Shown: one piece after another, positions 7,526-51,187 of the stretch
Position numbering within the stretch: position 1 is the first letter of the stretch
Layout of the letters: each line of letters begins with the position of its first letter
Position numbers and translations under genes: made by a program
Assembly: GCF_001485475.2 (NCBI RefSeq)
Contig: NZ_DF977002.1
Location: forward strand, 1 to 64,000
Direction of reading: 5' to 3'
Length of the DNA: 64,000 nucleotides
Source: Tepidanaerobacter syntrophicus
GTDB lineage: Bacteria; Bacillota; Thermosediminibacteria; Thermosediminibacterales; Tepidanaerobacteraceae
Notes under the pieces: model-generated
Databases searched by the model: none
What the model was told of the DNA's origin: nothing
What the model saw: only the letters and a program-made list of their open reading frames with translations

Positions 7526-8860
7526 TTATTCCTTTCCTTGCAGTGATTTAAGTTTTCCCTTTAATTCCTTAAATCTTTTTTCTTCTCCCGCATCTGAAGG
7601 GTGATAATACTCTTTGCCCCTTAAGTTTTCAGGCAAGCATTCCATAAAAGCCACTTTATCTTCAAAATCATGGGCATACTTATATCCTTTTCCATAACCG
7701 GCTTCCTTCATTAAATTTGTCGGAGCATTTCGAATGTGTAAAGGAACAGGTTCTGCAAGAGTTTTTTCAGCATCTTCTTTTGCTTTTAGATATGCCACAT
7801 AAATAGCATTTGACTTGGGTGCAAGAGCAAGATATACAGCCGCTTGTGCAAGGCTGGTGTTGCACTCGGGCATTCCAAGAAAGTGTGCTGCAGAAAATGC
7901 GGCAACAGCCTGCTGAATTGCTGCGGGATCGGCAAGACCTATATCTTCGGATGCAATACGAATCATGCGTCTTGCAATATATAGTGGATCTTCCCCGGCT
8001 TCCAGCATTCTGGCAAGCCAATAAACCGCCGCATCGCTGTCGCTGTTTCTGACAGATTTATGAAATGCAGAAATAAGGTTGTAGTGTTCCTCACCTTTTT
8101 TGTCATACAGAAGTGTTTTCTTTTGAAATGCTTCCTCTAGAATATCTTCAGTAATAACTATTTTACCTTCTTTATCAGGCAATGCAATTAGAGAAGCCAG
8201 CTCTAAGGTATTTAGCGCTATACGTGCATCGCCGTTTGAGTAAATTGCCAATTTTTCAAGAATTTCATCACTGATTTCGATATTCATACGGCCAAGGCCA
8301 CGTTTTTCGTCTTGAAGTGCGCGCTTCAGTATAGCAATTATATTTTCAACAGTTAGAGGTTTTAAGATAAAGACTTTTGACCTGGAAAGTAATGCTGAAT
8401 TAAGTTCAAAAGAAGGATTTTCAGTTGTTGCTCCAATCAAAATAATGTCTCCCTTTTCAACAAAAGGCAAAAAAGCGTCCTGCTGGGATTTGTTAAACCG
8501 ATGGATTTCATCAATAAAAACCAAGGTCCTTTGTCCGTAATGCTTACGTTCTTCGGCTTCTTTCATTACTTCTCTGATTTCCTTTATGCCAGAAAGCACA
8601 GCGCTGAAATTTTCAAATTTAGCATTAGTCTTTTCTGCGATAATTCTGGCTATTGTAGTTTTTCCAGTGCCCGGAGGACCCCATAGTATCATAGAAGTTA
8701 TGCTATCATTTTCAATTAATTTTCTTAATATTTTATCTTTCCCTAGAATATGTTCCTGGCCTTCAAATTCGTCAAGAGTTCTTGGCCTCATTCTATCCGC
8801 TAAAGGAGCCGAGCTCGAATTCGCTTTGTTCGTATCGAATATTGAAGCTTGATCATTCAT
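7526..8860 (-). CDS. rarA: Replication-associated recombination protein RarA/MgsA
   Basis: A 444-residue AAA+ ATPase of the RarA/MgsA/WRNIP1 family, which acts at stalled replication forks. Walker A GPPGTGKT is at 61-68, Walker [11 protein letters not shown] has D117/E118, and sensor 1 is in [13 protein letters not shown]. The C-terminal half carries the family tetramerisation region ending in the [15 protein letters not shown] signature. Length is typical. It lies 5 nt after acyP and 40 nt before cheB. A strong ATG start with a GGTGG site. Confidence 0.96.
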
Positions 8861-10249: not shown

Positions 10250-11575
10250 CTAAGATTCTCCCTTCCGTTGTTTTGGCTTTATAACTATAGGAGTTCCCTC
10301 AAAGCCAAAGGCCTTACGCAAAACATTTTCCAAATATCGTTCATAAGAAAAGTGAAAGAGGTTTATATCATTTACGAAAAAGCAAAATGTAGGAGGTTTT
10401 ACAGCTACTTGAGATGCATAATACAATTTCAATTTCTTACCTTTTATTGACGGCGGTTCTGTCACTGCGGTAGCTTCTCTTATAACTTCATTTAGCACGC
10501 TTGTTTTTATTCTGAGAGTATAATTTTCCATAACGCGATTTATGAGCTCTAGGATTTGTCCCACTCGCTGGCCGGTTTTTGCCGAAATATAAACTATCGG
10601 AGCATATTTTATAAAATTCAATTCATCTCTGATTTTTTTACTAAATTCGTCTGCTGTATAAGAATCTTTTTCTACTAAATCCCATTTATTTACAACTATT
10701 ATTATTGCCTTTCCTGCTTCATGGGCAATTCCCGCTATTCTCTTGTCTTGTTCTGAAATATCTTCTGTGGCATCCAAAACAAGTAGTGCTACATCCGCTC
10801 GCTCTACTGCAGAAAGAGCACGAAGCATGCTGTAATATTCCACATCTTCGCTCATTTTACTTTTTCTTTTTAACCCGGCAGTATCGATAAGCAGCATTTT
10901 TTTACCATCGACTTCCAAGTATGAATCAATAGCATCTCGTGTTGTTCCCGGAACATCACTTACTATCACTCGTTCTTCTCCGAGTATAGCATTTACAAGA
11001 GATGATTTTCCTATATTAGGTCTGCCTATAACAGCCACTTTAACTATTTCTTCTTCTCCGTTGTCCAGACCACTATCGATTATATAGCTTGTAATCTTAT
11101 CTAACAAGTCTCCTGTTGCAAGGCCGTGAATTGCAGAAACAAAAATTACATCATCAAAGCCAAGCTTATAAAATTCGTTGTCTATTTTTGTGCTGTCGAA
11201 ATTGTCCACTTTATTAACCACAAGTATAACGGTTTTGCCGCTTTTTCTTAAAATGTCGGCAATATCTAAATCTGTAGAAGTTAAACCGTCTTTTCCATCA
11301 GTTACAAACAATATTAAATCTGAATTGTCAATTGCAAAATCAACTTGTTGCTTAATTTTGTTTAAAATAATGTCCTTTTCTTTAACCGTCGGCTCAATTC
11401 CGCCTGTATCAATTAAAGTAAATCTTTTTCCGTTCCATTCAGCTTCTCCATATATTCTATCCCGAGTAACACCAGGTTTATCATCGACAATTGAAATTCT
11501 TTTGCCTATAATTCTATTAAATAGCGTGGATTTGCCTACATTAGGCCTGCCTACAATCGCAACAGTAAAGCTCAT
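10250..11575 (-). CDS. der: Ribosome biogenesis GTPase Der (EngA)
   Basis: A 441-residue protein with two tandem GTPase domains and a C-terminal KH-like domain, required for 50S assembly. G1 motifs are GRPNVGKST (9-17) and GRPNIGKSS (about 180), G3 DTGG and DTAG, and G4 NKVD and NKWD. The KH domain spans about 355-440. ATG start with a GGAG site. The stop codon is 2 nt before the gpsA start, so translation is probably coupled. Confidence 0.97.
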   Translation of the reverse strand: MSFTVAIVGRPNVGKSTLFNRIIGKRISIVDDKPGVTRDRIYGEAEWNGKRFTLIDTGGIEPTVKEKDIILNKIKQQVDFAIDNSDLILFVTDGKDGLTSTDLDIADILRKSGKTVILVVNKVDNFDSTKIDNEFYKLGFDDVIFVSAIHGLATGDLLDKITSYIIDSGLDNGEEEIVKVAVIGRPNIGKSSLVNAILGEERVIVSDVPGTTRDAIDSYLEVDGKKMLLIDTAGLKRKSKMSEDVEYYSMLRALSAVERADVALLVLDATEDISEQDKRIAGIAHEAGKAIIIVVNKWDLVEKDSYTADEFSKKIRDELNFIKYAPIVYISAKTGQRVGQILELINRVMENYTLRIKTSVLNEVIREATAVTEPPSIKGKKLKLYYASQVAVKPPTFCFFVNDINLFHFSYERYLENVLRKAFGFEGTPIVIKPKQRKGES

Positions 11576-13924: not shown

Positions 13925-14115
13925 AACTTTATAAGGTATTTTCAAAGCTCTATAAAGTTTATGTTTCCTTCCTTGTTCATCGTACCCACTTTCGATTAAC
14001 TCTACTGGTGTTTGTTTGGCGCTCCAAAGGCTTAAATTCCCCAGTAACGTCTGGGTACACATCAATAGTTGCGTTTAATGCTGTACTATTGATTTACCGT
14101 AACGTTGCAGATTTA
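13925..14115 (-). ncRNA. Possible TnpB guide RNA (omega RNA) region at the element's right end
   Basis: In active IS200/IS605 and IS607 elements the 3' end of tnpB and the following right end encode the guide RNA. This segment keeps the usual layout: a hairpin pairing CAATAGT (tnpB end) with ACTATTG, followed by a GAATTTAAGCC block and an A/T-rich end. With TnpB lacking its RuvC-I part, any RNA would have no nuclease to guide. Existence of the RNA is inferred from family knowledge only. Confidence 0.35.
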
Positions 14116-36860: not shown

Positions 36861-36958
36861 CCTCTCCTACTGTTTTTTGCTTTTAACTGATTAAGTTTCT
36901 CCTAATTTTAACATAAAACCTTTTTGGTTTAAAGTTTGATTTTGATGTCGTATAAAAA

Positions 36959-36996
36959 ATAAGCACTTTGCGGTTTTTACACCACAAAGTGCTTAT
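36959..36996. terminator. Terminator after the transglutaminase gene
   Basis: A 12-bp stem, ATAAGCACTTTG with CAAAGTGCTTAT, followed on the minus strand by six T. It separates the riboswitch-controlled gene from scfB. Confidence 0.85.
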
Positions 36997-37038
36997 TGTT
37001 TTTCTATGTATATAATTACCCTTATTAAACCCCTCTAG

Positions 37039-37839
37039 CTAATATTCTTTCTCTTTTTTAAATTCATTTGCATTTTTCTTAAATGAAACTGCTTTACCGC
37101 TTTTTGACATTATGGAATCATAACATGCATCAACTGTAATCCAGCCTTGATTTTGAAGATATACTTCATTCCATGCATGATACTCGCTTACGTCATTTTT
37201 ATAGCCCTTGACAAGTTTTGCCGGTATGTTAATACTCCTAAGCATTGCAGCATAAAGTGCCGCATAGTCAAAACATATACCTTTTTTTGTGGAAAGCGTT
37301 TCTTCCACTGAGGGTATGTAATTACTGTTAAGGCTTTTGACCTTATCTTTGTCATACTCAAAGTTTTTTACTATGTAATCATATATGGCATATGCTTTTT
37401 GCTCATCGGTGCTTAAGTTTTCTGAAAGCTTTGCAGCCATCTTAGCCGCTTCCCCGTTTTTATCCCAGTAAATCGGAGATGCTGACTGTAAAAAAGGCAA
37501 TTTTTCGTCTGCTAATTTAACCTCTATATCTTTGCTGTCTTTAGGCATGTACTTGTTGCTGTCAATATACTCCAACAGCGTCAGTTTGTATGTGCCTGAA
37601 CCCATCTGAAGCGGAAGTGTTTGCCCAACATTATTTACATCGTAAAAATAACTTACATTGTTCTTTTGAATCATTACCTTTATTTTTTTATCTTTCAGCG
37701 CCTGATTTACCTTTACTATTCCAAGTTCTGCATCGCTTAAATCAAATACATCTGCCTGGCTTGCAAGAGGTTTGTTTAAAATTGGAAGCATAAACAAAAA
37801 ACACATCAAAAGGCAGAGTATCCTCTTTAGTTTAAGCAA
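37039..37839 (-). CDS. Secreted transglutaminase-fold protein
   Basis: About 266 residues. A signal peptide (basic start, hydrophobic LCLLMCFLFMLPIL, cleavage probably near ASQA) precedes a domain of unknown fold and a transglutaminase/protease-like core with triad C189 (KKGICFDYA), H221 (EYHAWNEVY) and D237 (ITVDACYDS). Such proteins can be cysteine peptidases or cross-linkers; the sequence does not decide. The start is TTG 37839, 9 nt after GGAG: an ATG 11 codons earlier lies inside the riboswitch. It has its own promoter and a c-di-GMP-I riboswitch, and stands at the end of a surface-protein locus, so it may process or cross-link those proteins. Confidence 0.88.
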   Translation of the reverse strand: MLKLKRILCLLMCFLFMLPILNKPLASQADVFDLSDAELGIVKVNQALKDKKIKVMIQKNNVSYFYDVNNVGQTLPLQMGSGTYKLTLLEYIDSNKYMPKDSKDIEVKLADEKLPFLQSASPIYWDKNGEAAKMAAKLSENLSTDEQKAYAIYDYIVKNFEYDKDKVKSLNSNYIPSVEETLSTKKGICFDYAALYAAMLRSINIPAKLVKGYKNDVSEYHAWNEVYLQNQGWITVDACYDSIMSKSGKAVSFKKNANEFKKEKEY

Positions 37840-37848
37840 AATAAAACT

Positions 37849-37936
37849 CTCCTTTCGGTAGCTGGCTGCCATCTTGCGAAGGCCCTCTAGCTTTGCGTCC
37901 CCGCGTTTCCACGAGTTTGCCTTTATCGTTTGAAAG
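37849..37936 (-). promoter_or_regulatory. c-di-GMP-I (GEMM-I) riboswitch
   Basis: On the minus strand the conserved GEMM-I blocks occur in order: AAAGGCAAAC, a helix capped by a GAAA tetraloop (CTCGTG-GAAA-CGCGGG), GGACGCAAAGC, GGGCCT, then ATGGCAGCC and CTACCG closing the aptamer. The outer strands CTTTC (37932-37936) and GAAAG (37852-37856) can pair, and GAAAG overlaps the AAAGGAG Shine-Dalgarno of the following TTG. Ligand binding that stabilises this P1 helix would hide the site, so an OFF switch acting on translation is likely. The aptamer call is strong; the direction of control is inference. Confidence 0.92.
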
Positions 37937-37982
37937 TTTAACTAAAAAAAATTCTCTCGAATCAAATATTCAATTTAGGCTA

Positions 37983-38011
37983 ATTTTACCATAATTTACA
38001 TAGATTTTCAA
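37983..38011 (-). promoter_or_regulatory. Promoter of the riboswitch leader
   Basis: TTGAAA (38006-38011 as TTTCAA on the plus strand), 17-bp spacer, TAAAAT (37983-37988). It starts just past the sortase terminator, so the transglutaminase has a separate transcript. Confidence 0.8.
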
Positions 38012-38012
38012 G

Positions 38013-38043
38013 CACAAAAAAAACCAGGCTATATATTCTCACC
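38013..38043 (-). terminator. Sortase gene terminator
   Basis: A 7-bp stem AATCAGG with CCTGGTT, followed by a run of T on the minus strand. It overlaps the stop codon of the sortase gene. Confidence 0.75.
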
Positions 38044-38673
38044 TGATTCCAAAAGGTTAGCTCTTACTATTAATCTTGGGTAAGGTTTCCTGCTGTAATC
38101 GCACGTAATAAGAGTTAAGAGTTTTTTGTCCTTTTGCGGCAGCATCACCCAGGTATCTTCTGCCTCAACAAGAAATGTCTCGGATACTACATAAGTACAT
38201 GTTTTATCCTTTACTATAATCTCGATTTTATCTCCTTTTTTAAGTTCATTTAATCTGTTAAACTGCCTGCCGTAACTCCGGCTCCGATGTGCCGAAATGC
38301 AGTAGTTGCCTATATCTCCAGGATTACCCGTGCCGGATACTGAAGCTGCCGAAATATCAAGATTGGTTTTTGTTGCGCCTTTTAATATGGGCAAGAAAAT
38401 ATTTATTTTATCAATTTTTAGCATGCCTTCCATATGAGAGTTTATATATTCTATAAGATAATCATTTTTTTTGCTTGCAAGCGGCGCAGAAGTATCTTCT
38501 TTCGGTGCTTCGTCTGGATAATCTCCCAGATCTTCCATTGTCTTGTTCCATGTTTCAATAAGCTTTTTCTGTTGATAATCGAAGTAGGCTTCTTTTAGTT
38601 TCGGATAAGATATTAAAAATATGCCGGACAAAATTAGTATTACAGCAATAAACCTTTTCATAATCCTCACCAT
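38029..38673 (-). CDS. Sortase, probably class D
   Basis: A 214-residue membrane-anchored transpeptidase: N-terminal helix (FIAVILILSGIFLIS), linker, then a sortase barrel with H129 (ISAHRSRSYGRQF), C191 (LTLITCDYS) and R200 (KPYPRLIVRAN). Size and the single N-terminal anchor fit class D, often linked to sporulating Firmicutes. The likely substrate is the MPKTG protein 83 nt upstream. Start uncertain: the first ATG lacks a site, while ATG 38661 has GGTGAGG only 3 nt away. A strong hairpin directly ahead may limit its expression. Confidence 0.9.
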   Translation of the reverse strand: MVRIMKRFIAVILILSGIFLISYPKLKEAYFDYQQKKLIETWNKTMEDLGDYPDEAPKEDTSAPLASKKNDYLIEYINSHMEGMLKIDKINIFLPILKGATKTNLDISAASVSGTGNPGDIGNYCISAHRSRSYGRQFNRLNELKKGDKIEIIVKDKTCTYVVSETFLVEAEDTWVMLPQKDKKLLTLITCDYSRKPYPRLIVRANLLESGENI

Positions 38674-38679
38674 CTTTAA

Positions 38680-38719
38680 AAATTTGCCTGGATTATATTG
38701 TAAAATATATTCCAGGCAA
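38680..38719 (-). terminator. Terminator or attenuator in front of the sortase gene
   Basis: On the minus strand TTGCCTGGA and TCCAGGCAA pair, with further A/T pairs inside the loop, followed by ATTTTT. The T-run ends only 7 nt before the sortase ATG. The sortase mRNA would come from readthrough or need antitermination; no separate promoter is visible between. Confidence 0.8.
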
Positions 38720-38755
38720 TATATAGGGGATGTTGGTTATAACAAGTTAAGCACT

Positions 38756-39580
38756 TCACTTTCTTCTTATGGTCAAGCTGGCTCCTGCAACAATCGCTAC
38801 AATGCCTGCTATATAATATATATATGGAAGTTCTTCGCCTGTTTTCGGCATTGCCGGTGCTCCCATAGGAACTTCTTCAATAGGTATTTCAATAGGGGCA
38901 GCTTCTTGAGGGGCCTCCTCAGGAATTTCTATTTCAGGAGGTATTGGCTCTCCTTCCGGAACGGGCTCCTCTTCCACTTCAACCGGAGGTTCTTCTATCG
39001 GTTCTTCTTTTTTACCGCCTCCGCCGCCTCCTCCTCCGCCGCTAGTTTCTGCGGTAAAAATCCATCTCACTTCTGCCGTAGCATTTTGAAACTCATTTCC
39101 TGTTTCAGGACCCGGAAGTTCAATAGTTGCAATTAGATTTCTACTTTCTGACGAGGCAAACCTTCCAAGGCTTATATTGCTGCTTATATCTCCAATACCA
39201 CCAGAACTTTCGCTGTTTGCTCCGGTAGCAGGACCCCGGTAAATAACTTCACCTTGATATGAAATAGTAAGTCTTAGTTGTTTTAACAAATCGGCGCCTG
39301 TAGGCTCATCTCCGATTCTTTCAGCGCGCATATAGAGAGTGAAGGGCCTGCTGTAATTATTTGTTATCTTCAGCGTTCGTGTTATTGCATCGCCCGGATT
39401 CATGCGCCCTAGGTCAAAAAGTTTTCCGCCTTCCGGCACTAAGACAAGTCCTGAAGAATCGCCTCTAAGTTCCACATCGTCGGCAGCAAAAACTCCTTCT
39501 GCACCATACATCGTAAAAACACTAGCTGCAAAAAACGAGACCAAAAGCACTATGAGATATTTTTTTATATTTTTATTCAC
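38756..39580 (-). CDS. MPKTG-type cell-wall anchored protein
   Basis: About 274 residues. Signal peptide (YLIVLLVSFFAASVFTMYGAEGVFA), a beta-rich TasA-neighbour-type domain (about 35-175, with the MNPGDAITRTLKITNNYSRPF pattern), a run of nine Gly, an acidic Pro/Glu stalk, and a C-terminal sorting signal MPKTG, hydrophobic helix and RRK tail. The first sorting residue is Met instead of Leu. Two GTG starts are possible; I choose 39580, with GGAGG 9 nt upstream. Likely a base or linker protein that the sortase attaches to peptidoglycan. Confidence 0.87.
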   Translation of the reverse strand: MNKNIKKYLIVLLVSFFAASVFTMYGAEGVFAADDVELRGDSSGLVLVPEGGKLFDLGRMNPGDAITRTLKITNNYSRPFTLYMRAERIGDEPTGADLLKQLRLTISYQGEVIYRGPATGANSESSGGIGDISSNISLGRFASSESRNLIATIELPGPETGNEFQNATAEVRWIFTAETSGGGGGGGGGKKEEPIEEPPVEVEEEPVPEGEPIPPEIEIPEEAPQEAAPIEIPIEEVPMGAPAMPKTGEELPYIYYIAGIVAIVAGASLTIRRK

Positions 39581-39634
39581 CTTCACTACCCTCCTTTGTC
39601 GGGGGGTGAATTTTATTCACCTCTAAGGTGGTGG

Positions 39635-39662
39635 CCAAGGCATGCAAGACTGCATGCCTTGG
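39635..39662. other. Perfect 12-bp hairpin between tasA-like gene 2 and the MPKTG gene
   Basis: CCAAGGCATGCA and TGCATGCCTTGG with a 4-nt loop. There is no T-run on either side, so it is not a standard terminator. It could stabilise the 3' end of the tasA-like mRNA and so set unequal levels within one operon. Confidence 0.55.
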
Positions 39663-39687
39663 AGGTTATGCTGCTTGATTTTAGGTC

Positions 39688-40278
39688 TTATTCAGGTGTG
39701 CTTTCGCTCCATGCTTCAACGCCGTCTGGCAAAGAGGTAATTCCGAACGCATCTTTATACGCCTCATGAGATGCTTGAACGGCTTCAGCTTCGACGTCAA
39801 CTTTAAGGGTTTTTCCTTGATATTCATTGCCTGTAGTTGGTCCTGCAATTGTCACACTGTCCAAAAGTAATTCTGTTTCAACGCCCTGATTCATTATCTT
39901 GTAGTAATAGTAGTACCCGCCAGAGGCGATCCATTTATCAGAATTGATTATATTTAGTGTAACATTTGTTGTTGAAAGTGTATTATCTGGTATAAACTCT
40001 TCTCCGTCAAGGGCGCCCCAAACCGGCGTTAATTTGACCCTGACATATGTTCCTTTTGAACCTGTGCTTTTAATACTTACATCCTTATTTGTTGTATCTC
40101 CGGGGTTCCAATTTGTTATGTCTTGAAAGTCATGCTCATTAATTTCAATTGCAACAGTTCCTGCTGTAAATTTATTATCGGCTGTCTGACTGTCCGTAAA
40201 CCAAGCCATAGTTCCGCCTACCACGAGAAGAGCAGCCAGTGAAAATACTAGTAAACCTATTAACAAATTCTTTCTCAT
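39688..40278 (-). CDS. TasA/camelysin-family secreted protein, copy 2
   Basis: A 196-residue protein of the TasA/CalY (M73) family, whose members form extracellular biofilm fibres. SipW-type signal peptide (LLIGLLVFSLAALLVVGGTMAWFTD) and the family core FTAGTVAIEI, NWNPGD, VSIKSTGSKGTYVRVKLTPVW. A tyrosine-rich GGYYYYYKIMN strand and a C-terminal AEAVQASHEAYKDAFG block follow. ATG with GGAGG. It is a close tandem copy of the gene 89 nt upstream, differing mainly in the middle. Confidence 0.92.
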   Translation of the reverse strand: MRKNLLIGLLVFSLAALLVVGGTMAWFTDSQTADNKFTAGTVAIEINEHDFQDITNWNPGDTTNKDVSIKSTGSKGTYVRVKLTPVWGALDGEEFIPDNTLSTTNVTLNIINSDKWIASGGYYYYYKIMNQGVETELLLDSVTIAGPTTGNEYQGKTLKVDVEAEAVQASHEAYKDAFGITSLPDGVEAWSESTPE

Positions 40279-40367
40279 CTTAAAATCCTCCTTAAAATTT
40301 TTATTTTCGTTTTAAACTAAACACGCTTTGTCTTTGATTGTTTAAATATTGCATAGAGGAATATTCT

Positions 40368-40937
40368 CTATTCTGTCCACGGCTCTATACCCGTCGGCAT
40401 ATTACTTAGCCCCCATGCATCTTTATATGCTTCATGAGATGCCTGAACAGCTTCAGCTTTGACATTTACGGTAAGTTTTTTGCCTTGATAATCATCTCCT
40501 GTCAAACTTCCTATAATCTCAACTTTTGAAAGAAGTGGTTCGGTAACAGCTCCTGCGGCTAATATATGTTTGTAATAGTACCATCCGTCTCCGCCGTCTA
40601 CCCAATGCGTTCCTAACTCTCCATCAGCAAAGATAAGATTTACATTGTTTATTGGAAGATTTCCCTCCCATACAGGATTTATACTTACTCTTACATATGT
40701 CCGTTTTGATCCTAGGCTCTCAACCTTCACTTCTTTGTCGTATATGTCGCCGGGATTTACATTTTCTTTTACCACAGGATTTGTTTGGCCATTTTCTAGT
40801 ATTTGAATTTTTACTGTTCCTGCAGTAAATTTATTACTAGCTTCTTTTGTATCCGTAAACCAAGCCATGGTTCCGCCTACCACTAGGAGGGCGACAAGTG
40901 AAAATACAAGCAGGCCTATGAGAAAACTTTTTTTCAT
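40368..40937 (-). CDS. TasA/camelysin-family secreted protein, copy 1
   Basis: A 189-residue paralogue of the next gene. Shared signal peptide (FLIGLLVFSLVALLVVGGTMAWFTD), FTAGTVKIQI, NVNPGDIYDKEVKVESLGSKRTYVRVSINPVW and the same AEAVQASHEAYKDAWG end. The middle segment has diverged (WVDGGDGWYYYKHILAAG). Processed presumably by the SipW-type peptidase encoded just upstream, 107 nt away. ATG with AGGAGG. Copy 1 and copy 2 could be major and minor fibre subunits. Confidence 0.92.
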   Translation of the reverse strand: MKKSFLIGLLVFSLVALLVVGGTMAWFTDTKEASNKFTAGTVKIQILENGQTNPVVKENVNPGDIYDKEVKVESLGSKRTYVRVSINPVWEGNLPINNVNLIFADGELGTHWVDGGDGWYYYKHILAAGAVTEPLLSKVEIIGSLTGDDYQGKKLTVNVKAEAVQASHEAYKDAWGLSNMPTGIEPWTE

Positions 40938-41044
40938 TCTAAACCCTCCTCAGGTTTTTAAGGTTTTATCTTTCTTCTCTAACTCTAATACTGCAGTTTT
41001 TAATAATTTTAACCCGCAATCCCTAATTCTTCCCGTTTACCCCT

Positions 41045-41641
41045 CTATGCTTCTTCTTTTGTAATCTCCCCCTCGTTTATTTTCCGTTCGCTCTTATTTT
41101 TGTCCCCTTTTCTTTCACTTACTATGATTTTCGCCAGTTCTACTGCGAGAAAGAGGGTCCATGTAGCAAGTAAAATCAGAATTCCGCCTCTTGATCTTGC
41201 AAAGTAAAATGCGTAACCGATGTAGGGTATTGTAAAAACAACTTTTCCTATTAAGTGATTGGCGCTTACCGGCATTGGGTCTTCGACTTCATTGGCATCG
41301 CCCTTTGTCTTGAAAAAGAGCCCGTCCTTTTCATATATATCGATTACCCGGTGTGTGGTAGTATTTTCACCGTCCTGCTTTCCTCTAAAAGTAATAACAT
41401 CTTGAGCCTTTATTTCTTTTGGACCTGCCGGTTTTACTATCACAAGGCTTCCTGTTTTGATAGTGGGATTCATGCTTCCGCTCATAACTATATACATTTG
41501 GTAGCCTCCTATCGACGGAGCCTTTCCTGTAATTTTGCTCTGCACTACAAAAATCAGGAGCACTATAACCGCGCAGGTAAGCAGAATCAATATTGTATTT
41601 GATAGAAAACCTTTTACTTTGCAAACCGTGTTCTTTTTCAT
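41045..41641 (-). CDS. sipW: Signal peptidase I, SipW (ER) type
   Basis: A 198-residue signal peptidase with two membrane helices (about 13-33 and 150-172). It is of the ER type: catalytic S56 in MSGSMNPT and H97 in TTTHRVI in place of the usual Lys. SipW of B. subtilis is required to process TasA, and the gene order here (sipW then two tasA-like genes) supports the same role. A long charged C-terminal tail follows the second helix. Starts 12 nt after the vWA gene. Confidence 0.93.
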   Translation of the reverse strand: MKKNTVCKVKGFLSNTILILLTCAVIVLLIFVVQSKITGKAPSIGGYQMYIVMSGSMNPTIKTGSLVIVKPAGPKEIKAQDVITFRGKQDGENTTTHRVIDIYEKDGLFFKTKGDANEVEDPMPVSANHLIGKVVFTIPYIGYAFYFARSRGGILILLATWTLFLAVELAKIIVSERKGDKNKSERKINEGEITKEEA

Positions 41642-41653
41642 GCTGCCATCTCT

Positions 41654-44600
41654 TTACTCTTCAGATTCTTCTGTTGATGCTAAAAGTTTTTCTTTATCAG
41701 GTAAAACAGCTTTCAGATCCATCGAGCTCAGTAATACTTCTGCACTGCTCTTTTGTCCTGCAGTGCTTGAACCGCTGTAAGACACTGCAATTGTAAAGGA
41801 GTTGTTTTTTTCTGTCTCGTCTCTAAACCAGGAATCATTGACTTTTTTGTTGGTTGCTGTTACAGTTACTGCAACATTATTTAAAATCATATCTCTTGTA
41901 ATTGTAAAACTTTGGTTTGTTAAATTTGTTAAACTGTAATCCATAGGAACTGTTTCGCTTGCAGTATAGTTTCCCGGCCACAATCCGTCGATTATCTGTT
42001 GATCATTGTGTTTTACAAGTGTATTCCATTTTTTCCCTGAAGGGCCATTCACATGTATAGCGAACTCTTTTACAGTATCTATTCCATAATCACCGTTTTC
42101 AACAAACTTCTTTACAATTATCTTTCCCTTTTTTACTGTAACTGATATGCTATCAGTCGCTTTGCATCCATTAGCATCTGTTATTTGAATTGTATAGACA
42201 GCATCCTCTTCCGGCACAAGTGAAGGATTTGCACTCGTTGAAGTCCATGTAGAATCAGCGCTGCTTGTCCAAAGGTATGTGAATGGCGAATAACCATACA
42301 CCTGCAAGTTTTGGCCTATATTAATGGTATCTCCCACAACTATTATAGAGTCAGGCCCGGCTTCCACACCTATTACATTTACTGTTGGTATCGGGAAAAT
42401 TTTTTCTACATTGGGGGTACCGTTTATATCAGTATAGTGAAGCACAGCGCTTGTATTTGTCGGTAAATTATTGCCCATCACCCCGTCTTTTGCTTTAATC
42501 TTATAGCTTAACTCAGCTAATGTAGTTATTGTGCCGGGACTCCAGGTTATTGTCCGTGTTGACGGATTGTATGTTACTGTAGCATTTGGATTTGTCGTAA
42601 TGCTTCCGTCAACCAGCTCAAAGTTCTCATTAATTACATCGGTTACTACAGCATCGATTGCTGAATATCCGAGTAGTCCGGATATTGTATCGTAAATCCC
42701 TGATAAATCCGGTGCTCCGCTAGCTTCGTAATAACCGGAGTTCTGAGCCCATTGAAGAGTTTCCCTTGCAACAGTTCTGCTTTGGGTAGGCACTTGACTT
42801 ATAATCCCAACTGTAAAGACCATTGCCATGCTCCAACAACCCTGTCCTGCCGTATATGCCGCTATGGTATGCACATTGTGCCCTGTAGGTTCATTTGGTC
42901 CTGATGGATTTCCTATACTAGCTGTTGCCACACCATCCGTAAGCAAGACTATTACTTTATTAGCGTTTTGTCGGCCGTTGGTTTGTAAAATGCTTTTGGC
43001 TTTTAAAAATCCTGCTTCTATATTTGTTCCACCATTTGCAGTAATTCCGTCAATTGCATTTTTTACCGATGTAGCATTGCTTGAAAGCCCAATATTTTGT
43101 GTCGCATTAGAAGCCGAGCCTAGATCTCCAAGATACAAAGGACCTGCAAAAGAAACTACTGAAATGCGATTATTGCTGTCAGCTAAAATTGTGTCTGTAA
43201 ATTCTTTCGCGGCTTGTTTGGCATAGTAAAGTACAGTATGGCTGCCTGATACTCTATCATTCATACTGCCTGATCTATCTATTACTAAAACTACATCTAC
43301 AGGAGCCGGAGCAGGTGTGCCTGTTATCTGAAGTTTTACAGTGTAATTTCTGCACGGTGTAGCAGTAGTTGCTGTTTTGTTAACTTGTATCGTATCAGTG
43401 CCTGATGTGGCTGCTACAAGTTCCGGCATTATGACTGATTTAGGAGCCCCATAATCTAGAACGGTATCAGTTTGCAAACTCCTAAATGCTTTCAGCGAAG
43501 TTGCTGAATCCATGCCTGCGGGCCGTGGTAGTAACTCAAGAAACGGATCGTTTTCTATTGAGACTTCATAAGAAGTTGAAGCTTCTACAAGATTTGCTTC
43601 AAACTGGCATTGTGCTTTTGCCTGAATTACAAGTGACGACTCAACAAAGTATGGATCTATGGGAATTTCACCATCAATATGATATTCTCCGCCTGGTGTA
43701 AGTTCTGATATTGTCTCATTTGAGCTTTTAAGGCTGCTGTTTACATCCACTGATATATTTTGAAGTTGAACATCACCTGTATTTAAAACTACAACATGGT
43801 AATTAATGCTTTCGCCTACATTATAAAAATCATTGTCTGTAGAAATTGAGATACTTAAAGCGGGATTGTAAACTACTGGTGGAATAATTGGCAATTCTTC
43901 TACAGGCACTAAAGGATCTAATACTTCCTCAGGCAGCACAACTTCTGGTGGTATGACTTCTCCACCTTCTTCGGCAGGTATCTCTCCCTCGGGAGATTCC
44001 GGTTCTTGGGGCTGTCCGTCAGGATTTTCTGGAGTTGTCGGATCAGTAGGTACGGTTTCCTCGTTAGAACCTGTCTCTCCTGTGTCTTCAGAAGGTTCAC
44101 CATTTGTATCTTCTTCAGTGGTTGCCGGCTCTTCCGGCGCTGTTTCATCTTCAGGATTAGTAACCTGTCCCGGAAGTTCAGTATCTGGATCTGTAGGTTC
44201 TTCTGGTAGATCTTCATCAGGTGTTTGATCTGACGGACCTTCTATCTCGGGAGAACCACCTTCTTCTGAAGGATTTGCCTCTTGATCATCAGGTAGTATT
44301 TCATCTTCAGGATTAGTAACTTGTCCTGGGATTTCGGTATCCGGATTTGTAGGTTCTTCCGGTTGAGCCTCATCAGGTGTTTGATCTGACGGACCTTCCG
44401 GCTGCACTTCTTCATCACCTGCTACCGGGTCCTCTGTTTCGGGAGAACCGCCTTCTTCAGAATTACCCGTGCCCTGATCTTGAGTTATTTCACCGGGAAC
44501 TTCAGAACTTACAGAATCTATTGACTGCGTATCCGTATTTACCAATTCGTTAATTGAAGGTGTAGCATCTGTGCCAGATTCATCGGCAGAAACTACAGTA

Positions 44601-44668
44601 ATTGCCGGTGTGAAGATAAGCAATATCATAAGAATTGTGGCTAAAACTTTCTTTGAGGTACTTATCAT
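41654..44668 (-). CDS. Secreted von Willebrand factor A domain protein
   Basis: A 1004-residue exported protein. Signal peptide 1-28; acidic Pro/Glu/Thr-rich stalk 30-265 with two copies of a 33-residue unit (92-124, 144-176); CARDB-like domain 268-372; vWA domain about 456-665 with a complete MIDAS (D464-x-S466-x-S468, T548, D578); beta region with SEDS-unrelated repeats to 760; PKD/Ig-like domain 765-848; SpaA/DUF5979-like domain 849-940. No LPXTG or C-terminal membrane helix, so retention on the surface must be non-covalent or through partners. ATG with GGAGG. Likely an adhesin. Confidence 0.88.
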   Translation of the reverse strand: MISTSKKVLATILMILLIFTPAITVVSADESGTDATPSINELVNTDTQSIDSVSSEVPGEITQDQGTGNSEEGGSPETEDPVAGDEEVQPEGPSDQTPDEAQPEEPTNPDTEIPGQVTNPEDEILPDDQEANPSEEGGSPEIEGPSDQTPDEDLPEEPTDPDTELPGQVTNPEDETAPEEPATTEEDTNGEPSEDTGETGSNEETVPTDPTTPENPDGQPQEPESPEGEIPAEEGGEVIPPEVVLPEEVLDPLVPVEELPIIPPVVYNPALSISISTDNDFYNVGESINYHVVVLNTGDVQLQNISVDVNSSLKSSNETISELTPGGEYHIDGEIPIDPYFVESSLVIQAKAQCQFEANLVEASTSYEVSIENDPFLELLPRPAGMDSATSLKAFRSLQTDTVLDYGAPKSVIMPELVAATSGTDTIQVNKTATTATPCRNYTVKLQITGTPAPAPVDVVLVIDRSGSMNDRVSGSHTVLYYAKQAAKEFTDTILADSNNRISVVSFAGPLYLGDLGSASNATQNIGLSSNATSVKNAIDGITANGGTNIEAGFLKAKSILQTNGRQNANKVIVLLTDGVATASIGNPSGPNEPTGHNVHTIAAYTAGQGCWSMAMVFTVGIISQVPTQSRTVARETLQWAQNSGYYEASGAPDLSGIYDTISGLLGYSAIDAVVTDVINENFELVDGSITTNPNATVTYNPSTRTITWSPGTITTLAELSYKIKAKDGVMGNNLPTNTSAVLHYTDINGTPNVEKIFPIPTVNVIGVEAGPDSIIVVGDTINIGQNLQVYGYSPFTYLWTSSADSTWTSTSANPSLVPEEDAVYTIQITDANGCKATDSISVTVKKGKIIVKKFVENGDYGIDTVKEFAIHVNGPSGKKWNTLVKHNDQQIIDGLWPGNYTASETVPMDYSLTNLTNQSFTITRDMILNNVAVTVTATNKKVNDSWFRDETEKNNSFTIAVSYSGSSTAGQKSSAEVLLSSMDLKAVLPDKEKLLASTEESEE
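44141..44395 (-). repeat. Two 99-bp in-frame repeats in the vWA gene
   Basis: Positions 44141-44239 and 44297-44395 are about 85-90% identical and encode the repeated unit with EGPSDQTPDE, PDTE and PGQVTNPEDE. They form part of the stalk. Such repeats can change number by slippage or recombination. Confidence 0.8.
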
Positions 44669-44697
44669 ATTTAATTTTCACCTCCTTGTAACAAAAG

Positions 44698-44943
44698 TCA
44701 TGCTTCATCAGCTTCCCACGAACGAAATTTCACCAACCCCTTCCCTTCTTTTTCTAAAGCTTCTTCCATTAAATGAATAAGTTCCATTAAACTTCTGAAA
44801 GGGACTGTCTTTTCGTCTTCCAGCCACTGAGTATATCCCTGAACACTTGCGTTCTCACAATACAGCACTTTGATTACAAATGTCGTTGTGGAAGCAGTTT
44901 GTTTTATGCTTTTATCATCATTTGTAATCAGTTCCTTGTTCAT
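44698..44943 (-). CDS. Conserved small protein, first gene of the fibre operon
   Basis: An 81-residue cytosolic protein I cannot name. The core FVIKVLYCENASVQGYTQWL followed by EDEKTVPFRSLMELIHLM resembles, from memory, short Clostridia proteins with an F-x-V-K-V-x-x-x-x-N-x-x-x-Q-G pattern, but this is not verified. No signal peptide, no membrane helix. ATG with AGGGGG 8 nt upstream. It ends 30 nt before the vWA gene, so it is probably cotranscribed with it. Confidence 0.7.
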   Translation of the reverse strand: MNKELITNDDKSIKQTASTTTFVIKVLYCENASVQGYTQWLEDEKTVPFRSLMELIHLMEEALEKEGKGLVKFRSWEADEA

Positions 44944-45502
44944 TATGATGCCCCCTGCACTTCTAGTAGTTTTTCTATTTTTATTGTATCAGGGAGGTGT
45001 TTTATTAGACTTTCATTTGAATGTTATTACAATTTTTTCTTAATTTTATTTAAATTTCATTACAGGCACAATTGAATTACAGATAACAGGATTCTTTACT
45101 GCATTTAAAATGGCAGATAATATAAATATTTATAGATTTTTGCAGAAAAAATGATTTAGACATAAAAAAAGACCTCGTTATCCTTCAAAATAAGTATAGG
45201 CTCATAGAGGGCTAGATCTTTATGGAGCTAATTTGACTTGCAATAGATGGTTTCATGTTTGCACAATAACAGTAAGATACAATAGAAAGAAAAGGAGAAA
45301 ACATAGCGGGGTGAGACTAACATATCTTGCAATAAAAGAGAAAAATATGGGACGACGAGATTGGCCAGCAGGACACGAAGAGGGGTAGAATATGAAATGA
45401 TATTTGCTTGTTAGGATGGCAAGTTTATAGTAACAAAAAAATCCGGCTTAGAAAGCTTAGAAAGCCGGAAAAAATCAATTAATTATATTATTAATTTAAG
45501 AT
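44944..45502. other. Intergenic region upstream of the fibre operon
   Basis: About 560 bp with no convincing gene. It should hold the fibre operon promoter: a TACAAT -10 candidate lies at 44983-44988 on the minus strand with no good -35, which would suit an activator-dependent promoter. On the plus strand AAAGGAG precedes a GTG-started frame of about 25 codons (45310-45388, ending GRRDWPAGHEEG), perhaps a gene remnant. A terminator lies at 45434-45475. Confidence 0.5.
45434..45475. terminator. Terminator after the BTAD regulator gene
   Basis: CCGGCTT with AAGCCGG, 12-nt loop, and a T-run on both strands after the stem. It ends the regulator transcript before the fibre promoter region. Confidence 0.85.
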
Positions 45503-46723
45503 TTATTGGATAAAAGATTCTTTGGCACCTACGGGCTGAAATGAAATTTCCAGAGAAATTTGCGGCGTAAGGAGCCTTTTTTTAAATTCTTCATTAATCC
45601 TATTTCCTATATTTTGGAGATTTTCTTCCGCTATATCAGTAAGCAAAACAACTACTCGAGATTTGTTCCACCAGCTAAATACATCTCCTTTGCGTAGAAA
45701 CCGGGCCAAGATTTCGTGTAAGATATTTTTTGCTACATCTATATCTTTGTCAGAACAATTACTGCCAGTTTCAATAATTGAAATCAAGCCTAAAAATTCT
45801 TTATCCCCGGATCTAAGTATCTTGCGGCGCTCAAAGTTATATATGGCTTTGAAATAATCCGGCTCGCAAAATAGCGCTCCGTTAATAACATCTTCATTTA
45901 TTATGGTATAGCTTATCTGTGTAAGATTCTTTTCAGGGTCATCTTCGCTGCCGGCAGTAATTTTGCGGTATATGGCTTTAAGCTCAGGCGTTGGTCTTAC
46001 AGACATTTCTTTATACAGTCTTGCAGTTATATAATTATAATGATTCAAGGCATTTTTATACTCATGTAATTCGATTAGTGCATCGAGAAAGTATACATGG
46101 AATGATTCTTCGAAAGGTTCATAATTGACTACTCTCTCATATATGTCTATTATATCCAGATATTCATTATTTTCCTTTAACAACTCAAAAAGTCTTAACA
46201 CGGACTGGACGAAAATACGATGATAGCGGCTCCGAAAAAGAAACGCCCATTCGCTATAGGGATTTTCTGCAAGAAACTCTCCCTTATATATATCTATTGC
46301 TTCTAAGTAAGCCTTTTTCGCCTTTTCAGGATTATCCACTCTTAAACTATCAGCTTCTTTTACCTTTTCCTCGAACTGAACAAAATCAATTGTGCAAGAA
46401 TCGCCGGGATCGAATATATAAAATCCGTTTTCGAAAATTATATCAAAGTAGTGCTTCGTCTCCTCGCTATTTATAAGTCCGACAGACTCAAGGCCTTTTC
46501 TAAGACGAAATATTTGAGTTCTAAGGGCATTTTTCGGATCTATAAAATCTGAATCAGGCCATAAACTCTCTATTATATCTTCCGGAACTAATTTCTTATT
46601 GTAATAAGTAATAAAATACTTTAACAATTCCAGATTCTTATTGTTTCGTTTGCTTTTTTTTAAAATTGACTCATCGTCAAGTTTTATGTCGAAATTACCA
46701 AATGTATTAATCTTTATAGTCAA
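45503..46723 (-). CDS. BTAD transcriptional regulator with degenerate GGDEF-like domain
   Basis: A 406-residue protein. Residues 1-105 are an OmpR/SARP-type winged helix (LRTQIFRLRKGLE), 110-255 a BTAD tetratricopeptide-like domain (DIYKGEFLAENPYSEWA, YEPFEESFHVYFLDAL). Residues 290-397 align by eye with a GGDEF domain: helix KAIYNFERRK, RFLRKGDVFSWW, then NKSRV where GGDEF should be, then VVLL. The catalytic motif is lost but R344-x-x-D347 lies exactly 5 residues before it, as in a c-di-GMP inhibitory site. TTG start with GGGGGGTG. It follows the GGDEF-HD-GYP gene by 73 nt. The GGDEF-like call is my inference. Confidence 0.8.
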   Translation of the reverse strand: MTIKINTFGNFDIKLDDESILKKSKRNNKNLELLKYFITYYNKKLVPEDIIESLWPDSDFIDPKNALRTQIFRLRKGLESVGLINSEETKHYFDIIFENGFYIFDPGDSCTIDFVQFEEKVKEADSLRVDNPEKAKKAYLEAIDIYKGEFLAENPYSEWAFLFRSRYHRIFVQSVLRLFELLKENNEYLDIIDIYERVVNYEPFEESFHVYFLDALIELHEYKNALNHYNYITARLYKEMSVRPTPELKAIYRKITAGSEDDPEKNLTQISYTIINEDVINGALFCEPDYFKAIYNFERRKILRSGDKEFLGLISIIETGSNCSDKDIDVAKNILHEILARFLRKGDVFSWWNKSRVVVLLTDIAEENLQNIGNRINEEFKKRLLTPQISLEISFQPVGAKESFIQ

Positions 46724-46796: not shown

Positions 46797-48929
46797 TTAA
46801 AAGTGATACTTTATAAGAACTTTTTCTATAAAAACAGCTACAAGATCAGGATCATATTCCTTTCCCGCACCCTTCTTAAGTTCTTCCACTGCTTCATTTT
46901 GCGACAATGTTCTTGGGTAAGGTTTATAATTGGTCATAAAATCGTATGCATCAGCAATTGCTGCAATTCTTGCTTTCAGTGGTATTTCTTCGCCCTTTAA
47001 ACCCTTTGGGTATCCGGAACCATCCCAGTTTTCGTGATGCGCAAGTACGTATTGTGCAATTTCTGAAAAATCACCTACGCAGCTCAATATTCGATAGCCT
47101 ATTTCTGGGTGCCGTCTCATTTCTGCTATTTCTTCCTCTGTCAATGGACCGGTTTTATTTATAATTGATTTGTCTATTGCAACTTTGCCAATATCGTGAA
47201 GGAGGCCTATTGTTTTAAGCTCACTTAACTCTCTTGAGCTTAAAAGTATCTCCTTTCCTATGGCTACGCATAGATCGCTTACTCGTTTCGAATGTTTTTC
47301 TTCTAAAGGATGAGCTTCATATAAAGTTTTAACAATTGTTGAAATAGTCATATTTCGCATGCTAGAACTTTCGAACAACTTATTTTTATACATAAGATTT
47401 TCCGCTCTTTTTATGATTTCATTTATGTCTTCTTCTGCGGATTTCTTAACTTCCCACCCGCAAGAAATAGATAAATTTATTGAGCCTACCTTGGTATTGG
47501 CAGCTGCAATTACTATTCGGTCGATGACTTGCTTTACACCTTCTTCTGAAGTTTTTGGAAGCAAGACCGCAAATTCGTCACCGCCAATTCTAGCAATTAT
47601 ATCATCTCTTCTACAGGAAAGTCTTAAAGCATCTGCCGCTTTTTTTAGTATTTCATCTCCAAATTCATGTCCAAAGGCATCATTTGCCAGCTTTAGACCG
47701 TTTATATCTGCCATAATTACAGCAATAGGCAAATTTCTATCAGTATCAAGCCTGCGCAACTCCTCTTCAAAAAATCTGCGGTTATAAAGGCCGGTTAATT
47801 GATCATGGTAGCTTAAATACTCTATTGATTTTAATGTAGCTTCGAGAAGCTCTTTTTCATTTATCAGCATTTCTTCATTTCTCTTGCGAATAATTCGAAT
47901 CCATGCATTACTAAACAAGATAGTAAGACTTGACTCATCATATTTGGTATAATCTGAGTCTTTGTTTGCAACGGCTGTCACCATAACAATTTTACCTTTG
48001 TCAAATATCGGCACCGATAAGTATCTGGATAGATTGACATAATTGTTTTGAAAATCAAGATTGTCGAAACAATTTATAACTATCGATTGTTTTTCCTTTA
48101 TAACATTTGCCCAGAAGCCTGCCTTTTCAAAATCTACTTTAATATTATTTTTTTCTAATTTGCACTCGTTCAATATGTTGTCAGAAATACAAGCAAGTTC
48201 AATTTCATTACTGTCCTCATTATAAATGAAAGCATATGCCAATTTGCTTTCTGTTATCTTTAGCGCCTCATTTAATGTGAAATAAATTAATTCCTCTATG
48301 CTATTAAAATCTTGCTGGAGTATTTTTATTAAGCTTTCGCTCAGCTCAATGTTCTGTCTTGCAAGTTGTTCAGCTTTTTTTCGTATTATGGATAAACCCA
48401 AATGTTTAAGGTAAAATCTAATCCTATTATGTTTGCTGAAATTTTTGCCTTTTGGCATCAGAAAAATTACATTTCCCAAAAGAATGCCATCTTTTGTGAT
48501 ATTTGCAACAGCTATCTGGCCTATGTCAAGTCCGTTCATCATTTTTGAAATCTCAGACTGTATAAATTCTTCGCCAAGCAGTTCGTCAAGTGAAGAGAAA
48601 ATAATTATATCATCCGAAATTTGTTCGCTTTTGCATTTTGTGTAGTCAGTAAGCCTTCTGCAAAACAGTGTACAGTACTCCGAAAGCGATCTAGCCTCAC
48701 TTATGTTAAAGTTCGGGCCGCATGCAACTTTAATCACGAATTTTTCGCCGGAAACATCAAGCAAATTAACAAATACGCAGTTAGCTTTTGATACTAATAA
48801 AAGGGCATTTGCGACACTTTGATAGTCCATATTTTCTAACATTTGTAAGAACTCAAGGTCCAATTCGAAAAAATCTTTTGGTACTTTTTTAGGCGGGCCA
48901 TTAACCCTCTCTGCGAAATTATCTATCAT
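46797..48929 (-). CDS. GAF-GAF-GGDEF-HD-GYP c-di-GMP turnover protein
   Basis: A 710-residue soluble protein with both synthetic and hydrolytic c-di-GMP domains. Two GAF-like sensor regions (about 35-185 and 205-345), a GGDEF domain (375-490) with intact GGDEF at 449-453 and RxxD at 440-443, and an HD-GYP domain (530-705) with H578/D579 and the GYP motif at 639-641. So it can in principle make and degrade c-di-GMP depending on a GAF ligand. ATG with AGGAGG. Probably cotranscribed with the BTAD regulator. Confidence 0.93.
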   Translation of the reverse strand: MIDNFAERVNGPPKKVPKDFFELDLEFLQMLENMDYQSVANALLLVSKANCVFVNLLDVSGEKFVIKVACGPNFNISEARSLSEYCTLFCRRLTDYTKCKSEQISDDIIIFSSLDELLGEEFIQSEISKMMNGLDIGQIAVANITKDGILLGNVIFLMPKGKNFSKHNRIRFYLKHLGLSIIRKKAEQLARQNIELSESLIKILQQDFNSIEELIYFTLNEALKITESKLAYAFIYNEDSNEIELACISDNILNECKLEKNNIKVDFEKAGFWANVIKEKQSIVINCFDNLDFQNNYVNLSRYLSVPIFDKGKIVMVTAVANKDSDYTKYDESSLTILFSNAWIRIIRKRNEEMLINEKELLEATLKSIEYLSYHDQLTGLYNRRFFEEELRRLDTDRNLPIAVIMADINGLKLANDAFGHEFGDEILKKAADALRLSCRRDDIIARIGGDEFAVLLPKTSEEGVKQVIDRIVIAAANTKVGSINLSISCGWEVKKSAEEDINEIIKRAENLMYKNKLFESSSMRNMTISTIVKTLYEAHPLEEKHSKRVSDLCVAIGKEILLSSRELSELKTIGLLHDIGKVAIDKSIINKTGPLTEEEIAEMRRHPEIGYRILSCVGDFSEIAQYVLAHHENWDGSGYPKGLKGEEIPLKARIAAIADAYDFMTNYKPYPRTLSQNEAVEELKKGAGKEYDPDLVAVFIEKVLIKYHF

Positions 48930-49744: not shown

Positions 49745-51187
49745 TCATGTTTTAGTATTTGTAGTACTGTCTTCATCAAAAAACTTAATAAGCTGGGACT
49801 TGTTCTGGACTTCGCATTTTGAATAAATATTTTTTATATGAGTTTTAACCGTATTTTCGCTAAGATGCAGCTCCTCTGCAATCATTTTGTATGTTAATCC
49901 TTTTAACAGTAACGCTGTAATCCCTTTCTCTCGCTCAGTAAGTCCTCGGCTAGTCATAAGATTATAAATTGCCTTATCTTGTTCCGGATGAGTCATGTTA
50001 AAAAAATTAGTAAGAAAAGCGTGTTCTTTCAGCAATCTTATAAGTTGGTTATTTAAGACAGGTAGCATCAACATTATCACAAATACAATAGCAAGGGCTA
50101 CTACTGTTGAGCTTGAGGTATTCGGATTTGCGGCGTAAATTCTGCTTGCTGTAATTTCTCCTATAAATACCCCTAATACATTTGCTGCAAGACCTGTGCC
50201 AAATATCTTTGCAGCATTTTGGCTGTAATCTACCATTTCGCCAAGGATACTCCACCAAAATAAATCAAAAATGCCACATGCCCCTAGCATCAACGAATCT
50301 ATTATTATATAGCTTCCTGCGGAACGATCTAAATAAGCAAAGAGCAGAAAGGAAAATCCTATCATGGCAATGCCGACAATCAACGCATAAGTTCTGTTGG
50401 TTTCTAATGGTATATTTCGCAAAACAAGTATTGTTGCAATATAAGGAACCGCCCAAAACCAGCTGACAAGAAACCGATGCTCGTAAAATGCAGGATTTAT
50501 GATGCGATACATAAGGCCAGAATTAATAGTTATAATAATTATGAAAATGCATAAAAACAATAATGGAACTTTTACCTCTTTTTCTAGCGCCGGATTTTGC
50601 TGGTTTATTTCCGGTGCTCCATCAACATCTAGTTTAATATTTAAAAAAAAGGAAAGGACAAGAGAAAAGATTGATATTGCAAGAGCTGTAAATGGAGAAA
50701 AGTTTACTGCAATTATATTAAAAATTATCATTAAAATATTAGAGAAAATAAGTGCATCTGCAACAGTTTTTATTCTTTTTTCGGGGGGTGTAAAATTCTT
50801 AAGATAAAAACCCCAAGATGCTATCGCAAAACCTGCCGAAAATGAAATAACTATTATTGAAACATGCCATGCTGCAGAATAAGGAGTGAAGAAAATGCTG
50901 CTGCCGGCTATACATACTAAGGCTGAAATTGAAAAAACCCGTTTTGCCTCATGAATATTTTTTATTAATAAGCCGCAGGAAATAAGTCCTGCGGAATGTG
51001 CTGCTATTCCAGAAAAAAGCATATTTTGTACAGAAATATTGTTGCTTTCCCCTAAAGCATAAAAAATTTGTCCTTCAAAGGGAAAAGCAAGCAACCAACC
51101 GGAATAAAGTGAAAAGAGAAGTATCGACAAGGTGCAGCTGTTAAAGGAAAACATAGATTTTCCGAATAAACTTTTTTTCCATTGCAC
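49745..51187 (-). CDS. Membrane-embedded LuxR-type transcriptional regulator
   Basis: A 480-residue protein with about twelve hydrophobic helices resembling an MFS transporter (1-400), joined to a C-terminal LuxR/GerE helix-turn-helix (about 411-470; LTEREKGITALLLKGLTYKMIAEELHLSENTVKTHIKNIYSKC). So a transporter-like sensor bound directly to a DNA-binding output. GTG start with AAGGCGGTG. Divergent from the MFS gene across a 249-bp spacer, the usual place for a local regulator; it probably controls that gene and the OYE/SDR genes beyond. Confidence 0.88.
   Translation of the reverse strand: MQWKKSLFGKSMFSFNSCTLSILLFSLYSGWLLAFPFEGQIFYALGESNNISVQNMLFSGIAAHSAGLISCGLLIKNIHEAKRVFSISALVCIAGSSIFFTPYSAAWHVSIIVISFSAGFAIASWGFYLKNFTPPEKRIKTVADALIFSNILMIIFNIIAVNFSPFTALAISIFSLVLSFFLNIKLDVDGAPEINQQNPALEKEVKVPLLFLCIFIIIITINSGLMYRIINPAFYEHRFLVSWFWAVPYIATILVLRNIPLETNRTYALIVGIAMIGFSFLLFAYLDRSAGSYIIIDSLMLGACGIFDLFWWSILGEMVDYSQNAAKIFGTGLAANVLGVFIGEITASRIYAANPNTSSSTVVALAIVFVIMLMLPVLNNQLIRLLKEHAFLTNFFNMTHPEQDKAIYNLMTSRGLTEREKGITALLLKGLTYKMIAEELHLSENTVKTHIKNIYSKCEVQNKSQLIKFFDEDSTTNTKT

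Follow-up and report, generated by a model that had tools for sequence, protein, structure and literature searches.

A minus-strand gene of Tepidanaerobacter syntrophicus (contig NZ_DF977002.1) codes for a BTAD-type transcription factor whose C-terminal part looks like a GGDEF domain with a lost active site and a kept inhibitory site (I-site), and it stands next to a gene for a c-di-GMP enzyme. Does such a protein sense c-di-GMP, and if so, which genes would it control? The first-pass annotation, which gave no strand for the gene, had read the product as a c-di-GMP-responsive transcription factor. This reading is well supported by the analysis of the window, i.e., the whole stretch of 64,000 nucleotides that carries the gene, and of the homologues of its product; the binding of the ligand and its effect on the binding to DNA are what we infer. 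The features of the locus are collected in Table 1.

Table 1. Regulator gene, its domains and motifs, and the neighbouring features (window coordinates)
Feature	Position	Strand	Basis
Regulator gene (406 aa), coding for winged helix, BTAD and a degenerate GGDEF domain whose I-site is intact	45503..46723	-	
Winged-helix DNA-binding domain, residues 2-105 (Trans_reg_C, OmpR-PhoB class)	46409..46720	-	Pfam PF00486; AfsR fold
BTAD domain, residues 112-255	45959..46390	-	Pfam PF03704, E 9.2e-21; AfsR/EmbR fold
Degenerate GGDEF domain, residues 282-397	45533..45880	-	Pfam; family profile; predicted fold
R300 and R304, first helix, candidate secondary I-site (PleD R313-like)	45812..45826	-	51/62 and 56/62; proposed equivalence
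Primary I-site motif R344-K-G-D347	45683..45694	-	R 61/62, D 62/62
NKSRV replacing GGDEF, dead active site	45653..45667	-	GG[DE]EF in 0/62
R375, PleD R390 / DgcR R237 position, 31 residues past the RxxD arginine	45599..45601	-	58/62
GAF-GGDEF-HD-GYP c-di-GMP enzyme, upstream gene, 73 bp from the regulator	46797..48929	-	Pfam; spacing
Direct repeats phased at 11 bp (TGAAATT-TAAA-TAAAATT...), a candidate operator ahead of the surface operon	44999..45059	-	
Small conserved ORF, 81 aa, first gene past the candidate operator	44698..44943	-	cluster 6
VWA / GBS104-like tip-pilin-type surface protein	41654..44668	-	Pfam
SipW-type signal peptidase	41045..41641	-	weak S26 peptidase match; shared cluster 2; SipW name from TasA context
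Two TasA/camelysin-family fibre proteins (40368-40937 and 39688-40278)	39688..40937	-	Pfam PF12389
Surface protein, weak LPXTG-anchor match	38756..39586	-	Pfam E 0.012, below cut-off
Sortase	38029..38673	-	Pfam
Transglutaminase-like secreted protein under riboswitch	37039..37872	-	Pfam
c-di-GMP-I-GGC riboswitch	37853..37930	-	Rfam; only class-I one in genome

The TTG start of the regulator gene lies directly 3′ of a G-rich ribosome-binding site (GGGGGG-type). As in the SARP/BTAD proteins, an N-terminal OmpR-type winged helix is followed by a BTAD domain, both with Pfam matches above the cut-off (for PF00486, residues 28-81, E 3.5e-6), and all 20 family members scanned matched BTAD and Trans_reg_C. 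The AlphaFold2 model of the full-length protein had a pLDDT of 83.9, and that of the C-terminal domain alone 85.7. With Foldseek, the N-terminal half of the model matched AfsR and EmbR (E 1e-9 to 1e-8), and the C-terminal part matched GGDEF structures.

The C-terminal part is a genuine GGDEF domain with a dead active site. Residues 290-397 had been aligned in the first-pass annotation with the GGDEF domain of the neighbouring enzyme; a pairwise BLASTP of the two proteins was not significant (E 0.15) and was discarded as proof, so that the claim needed evidence from the family as a whole, and on family profiles and fold the homology stood. The Pfam GGDEF model hit residues 335-387 of the whole regulator with an E of 0.012, below the curated cut-off, and the C-terminal part scanned alone with an E of 0.0016; PF00990 (GGDEF) was matched by 20 of the 20 family members scanned, with a best E of 3.5e-7. 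Searched against the PDB, the family profile found diguanylate cyclases at 1.3e-5, and a domain-only profile aligned the LRKGDV segment with the I-site segment of SadC, of a Thermotoga maritima GGDEF protein and of DgcR. A phmmer search of the isolated domain against the PDB had given PadR proteins as top matches; these were chance hits (E > 0.1), and the profile search resolved the matter. The predicted fold agreed: VIA-align of an AlphaFold2 model against solved GGDEF structures reached a Z score of 14.1 (rmsd 2.7 Å over 122 residues), and the 50 matches listed were all entries that contain a GGDEF domain. GGDEF_2 (PF17853, CdaR/PucR-type) is a degenerate GGDEF-like domain within transcription regulators, and in that respect resembles the present one. 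The present family differs in matching PF00990: in the Pfam scan PF17853 was matched by a single member of the 20 (E 0.0016), and by the window regulator not even at an E of 10.

Conservation within the domain was analysed in an alignment of 62 sequences: besides the window protein there were 61 homologues, whose identity to it ranged from 19 to 68%. The motif spacing described in the first-pass annotation is as claimed: R344-K-G-D347 is followed by five residues (VFSWW) and then by NKSRV in place of GGDEF, and in the neighbouring enzyme R440-R-D-D443 is followed by IIARI and then by GGDEF. Likewise borne out was its suggestion of a dead catalytic domain with an intact I-site, and neither of the outcomes that it had named as contrary, another predicted fold or a lack of conservation of R344/D347 in orthologues, was observed. 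GG(D/E)EF is absent from all 62 sequences, the catalytic position 356 is acidic in only one of them and glutamine in 41, and the first metal acid is an aspartate in one; the residues for binding metal and GTP (the D327 and E370/E371 positions) are lost in almost all members. With the motif and the first metal acid lost, the family does not belong to the active diguanylate cyclases. The RxxD motif, five residues ahead of the GGDEF position, keeps its arginine in all sequences but one and its aspartate in every one, and among the 142 columns of the domain D347, R344 and R375 rank first, second and fifth in conservation, which is beyond what chance would give. In PleD, the I-site ligands are R359, D362 and R390, together with R313 from the other subunit (PMC7288161), and in DgcR they are R206xxD209, with R237 at the R390 position (PMC8041772). 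The distance from the RxxD arginine to the third ligand is 31 residues in the regulator, in PleD (R359-R390) and in DgcR (R206-R237). R300 and R304 would, from their location in the first helix, be the equivalent of PleD R313; one or the other is kept in 53 of the 57 sequences that have all three of R344, D347 and R375.

An RxxD motif is also common in active domains. By hand count, it was present in 14 of 17 distinct motifs of canonical active GGDEF domains from three of the family's genomes, repeated occurrences of one domain across loci being counted only once. Hence the informative point is the combination of lost catalysis with a kept I-site. The motif could in part be inherited from active GGDEF ancestors; passive retention is unlikely, because the rest of the catalytic site was lost.

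The family was then followed beyond the window. When 398 genomes, an even draw from the phylum, were searched with the family profile, 61 gave matches at E < 1e-45, some of them covering only part of the protein; full-length homologues are spread across the phylum. With six closer members as queries, 27 loci were collected from named genomes, and the genera with members include Tepidanaerobacter, Caproiciproducens, Lutispora, Tissierella, Alkaliphilus and Sedimentibacter.

The genomic context ties the family to c-di-GMP independently of the I-site. Of 58 loci scanned with Rfam, the window counted, 23 have a c-di-GMP riboswitch near the regulator gene, as have 4 of 8 additional loci of named genomes; many of the 35 loci without one are truncated by a contig end. 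Across 18 genomes there are 105 class-I riboswitches, of which 26 lay within 10 kb of a regulator gene where 1.06 were expected. This ratio is overestimated because these genomes were partly picked from loci known to carry riboswitches; the count over 58 loci suffers less from such bias. The genome of the window (2.43 Mb) has a single class-I riboswitch, and it lies 7.6 kb from the regulator. The riboswitches are mostly found directly 5′ of genes for TasA-family fibres, transglutaminases, CAP and other secreted proteins. As the family goes together with fibre loci that carry riboswitches, these may track the fibre genes rather than the regulator. The regulator gene itself is preceded by a c-di-GMP-II riboswitch (8717-8799) in Alkaliphilus peptidifermentans (L164), and in L100 another (10757-10839) lies 673 nt upstream of the regulator gene, which is probably behind it; this suggests c-di-GMP control of a c-di-GMP sensor.

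From the domain and its context we put at about 0.8 the probability that the family is a c-di-GMP receptor. Degenerate GGDEF domains are known to have other roles (PMC7288161), and the present one might be only a module for dimerisation or protein contacts, in which the R-D pair is structural and binds no ligand. This is unlikely: the I-site positions, with the ranks given above, outrank almost all hydrophobic-core columns, and the absence of R or D from 3 of the 17 canonical domains of the three genomes shows that the pair is not required by the structure; moreover, the linkage to c-di-GMP riboswitches would become a coincidence. Slightly less likely still is that the domain senses another nucleotide (GTP, ppGpp or another cyclic dinucleotide), either through the I-site or through a remodelled active-site pocket. 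The glutamine that prevails at position 356 gives the old active site a conserved variant of its own, and the degenerate domains of CC3396 and YybT have been described as sensing GTP and as having ATPase activity, respectively (PMC7288161). Against it, the residues that bind metal and GTP are gone almost everywhere, and the riboswitch class that recurs in the regulator loci is that for c-di-GMP.

If the family is a c-di-GMP receptor, the gene order points to what it would control. The enzyme gene upstream and the regulator gene are probably co-transcribed. On the other side lies a complete-looking surface-fibre locus, from the VWA protein to the riboswitch-controlled transglutaminase (36958-44943, minus strand). 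The 81-aa ORF that precedes the VWA gene, and for which no convincing Pfam match was found, belongs to a small conserved family that comes after the regulator in many loci and is present in 10 loci of the set, the window counted. In 14 of the 61 homologue loci, a TasA or SipW gene occurs no more than seven genes from the regulator; if sortase, transglutaminase and the LPXTG-like protein are added, the number of loci with at least one of the five near it is 25. Eleven more loci show a second context, consisting of uncharacterised secreted proteins with sub-threshold matches to FecR_C and WxLIP (among them L037:6087-14915, L097, L111, L131, L132, L136, L142-L144 and L146; clusters 4, 9, 10 and 14-17). 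Four of the 11 have c-di-GMP riboswitches, of classes I and II, ahead of small secreted proteins, and this is possibly another surface-structure system under c-di-GMP control.

Three other observations were made in these regions. A protein of 668 aa encoded in L105 (15376-17379) combines a response-regulator receiver domain at its N-terminus with, at its C-terminus, a signal-peptidase region that clusters with SipW. The window also has a gene (49745-51187, minus strand), two genes upstream of that for the c-di-GMP enzyme, whose 480-aa product joins a helix-turn-helix of the LuxR type to an MFS-like membrane protein; related genes are present in L031 and L107. At 13969-14030 (minus strand), a match to RAGATH-18 RNA exceeded Rfam's gathering score.

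Just downstream of the regulator gene, between it and the surface operon, we observed direct repeats with a period of 11 bp, TGAAATTTAAA TAAAATTAAGA... in the window, TGAAATCCAAA TGACATTCAAA TGAAATTCAAA in L032, and TGAAATTCAAA TGAAATTGGAA TGAAATTTAAA in L034; in each of the three regions the period-11 score was reached by none of 200 shuffles. A first operator pattern, TGAAANTNNAATAAAA, proved too narrow and was replaced by the phased-repeat test. On the sense strand downstream of the regulator, TGWAAYT-N4-TGWAAYT (period 11) gave 25 matches in 17 loci, compared with at most four matches at each of the other periods from 8 to 18, a single match on the other strand and no match in front of the regulator gene. 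A looser repeat unit gave 47 matches in 31 loci at period 11 vs 1 to 7 in the controls. The motif was found by inspection ahead of the counting of control periods, and since it was first spotted by eye these controls weigh more than the match count. In a blind period scan, period 12 scored in 9 regions vs 10 for period 11, and the period-12 signal was ascribed to coding regions. Genome-wide, the exact pattern is rare (0 to 5 times per genome), in some cases away from the regulator locus; matches in G000:C6 and G004:C24 sit at housekeeping or unrelated genes and were not taken as targets. Phased direct repeats suit a winged helix of the OmpR/SARP type, SARP proteins bind such repeats near promoters, and those seen here lie where an operator would be looked for; we take the 11-bp phased repeats as a candidate operator of the regulator.

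We propose that the regulator would be a SARP-type activator responsive to c-di-GMP. On homology and fold, its N-terminal winged helix would bind the 11-bp phased direct repeats and its BTAD domain would support activation. The C-terminal GGDEF domain cannot make c-di-GMP and has retained the product-inhibition site, where c-di-GMP, probably in the form of an intercalated dimer as in diguanylate cyclases, would bind to R344, D347 and R375 of one subunit and be bridged by R300 or R304 of the other. The subunits would thereby be cross-linked, and the bridged dimer fixed in a DNA-binding arrangement that sets the winged helices on the phased repeats and leads to activation. The presumed target is the adjacent surface-fibre operon (VWA adhesin, SipW, TasA-type fibres and sortase), and c-di-GMP would act again on the transcripts through the riboswitches inside the loci, which would make two layers of control. 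The effect could also be the reverse, with a c-di-GMP-bound regulator that represses, or that is switched off by its ligand. The I-site of diguanylate cyclases locks an inactive state (PMC7288161, PMC8041772), and the sign of regulation is not given by the sequence. Such a reversal would be a variant within the receptor reading, whose probability includes it, and not a competitor beside it; we consider it improbable, if a good deal less so than a contact module or another nucleotide, in view of the typical role of SARP proteins as activators (AfsR initiation complexes) and of the candidate operator upstream of a fibre operon that is likely c-di-GMP-induced. We favour, with clearly less confidence than the receptor function itself, the full proposal of an undescribed, Clostridia-wide family of SARP activators, gated directly by c-di-GMP via a fossil GGDEF I-site and acting at phased operators (11-bp period) in TasA/SipW/sortase fibre loci that have c-di-GMP riboswitch control of their transcripts as well.

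Because the pocket for c-di-GMP is kept and the family is spread beside riboswitch-bearing surface-fibre genes, it probably forms a class of transcription factor under c-di-GMP control that was not reported before. Little is known in Clostridia of protein receptors through which c-di-GMP acts on transcription; most of what has been described there are riboswitches. If the proposal is true, one second messenger controls initiation and transcript read-through at the same locus, a natural case of a single messenger using protein and RNA sensors. The system can be tested directly, since the family is widespread and its ligand site conserved, and since an operator is predicted and the target operon to try is obvious.

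The C-terminal modules of AfsR and EmbR are other than GGDEF. These SARP regulators (PDB 8hvr, 8k60 and 2ff4) share with the present family the fold and order of winged helix and BTAD domain, and in the literature searched no SARP of the AfsR/EmbR type was found with a GGDEF domain, nor was a BTAD/SARP protein joined to GGDEF as a c-di-GMP receptor (subscription papers and preprints lay outside that search). PelD acts in polysaccharide secretion, and to our knowledge the c-di-GMP sites of BldD, FleQ, VpsT and BrlR are not a GGDEF I-site and none of the four is a SARP. Neither degenerate GGDEF receptors nor transcription factors that bind c-di-GMP are new as a kind (PMC12564702). In C. difficile, c-di-GMP riboswitches stand over many genes of a clostridium, as they do here over fibre genes; the abstract on these genes describes control by riboswitches only and mentions no regulator of this type (PMC6200980). 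The four transcription factors resemble our regulator in having a DNA-binding output gated directly by c-di-GMP (PMC12564702, PMC4151990). The likeness to PopA is that of a dead active site with an intact RxxD I-site serving as receptor (PMC12564702), and to PelD that of a degenerate-GGDEF receptor for c-di-GMP (PMC7288161). PopA is a response regulator for protein localisation, and neither it nor PelD is known to have a fused DNA-binding output, whereas in the regulator described here the product-inhibition site would have been reused as the receptor for such an output.
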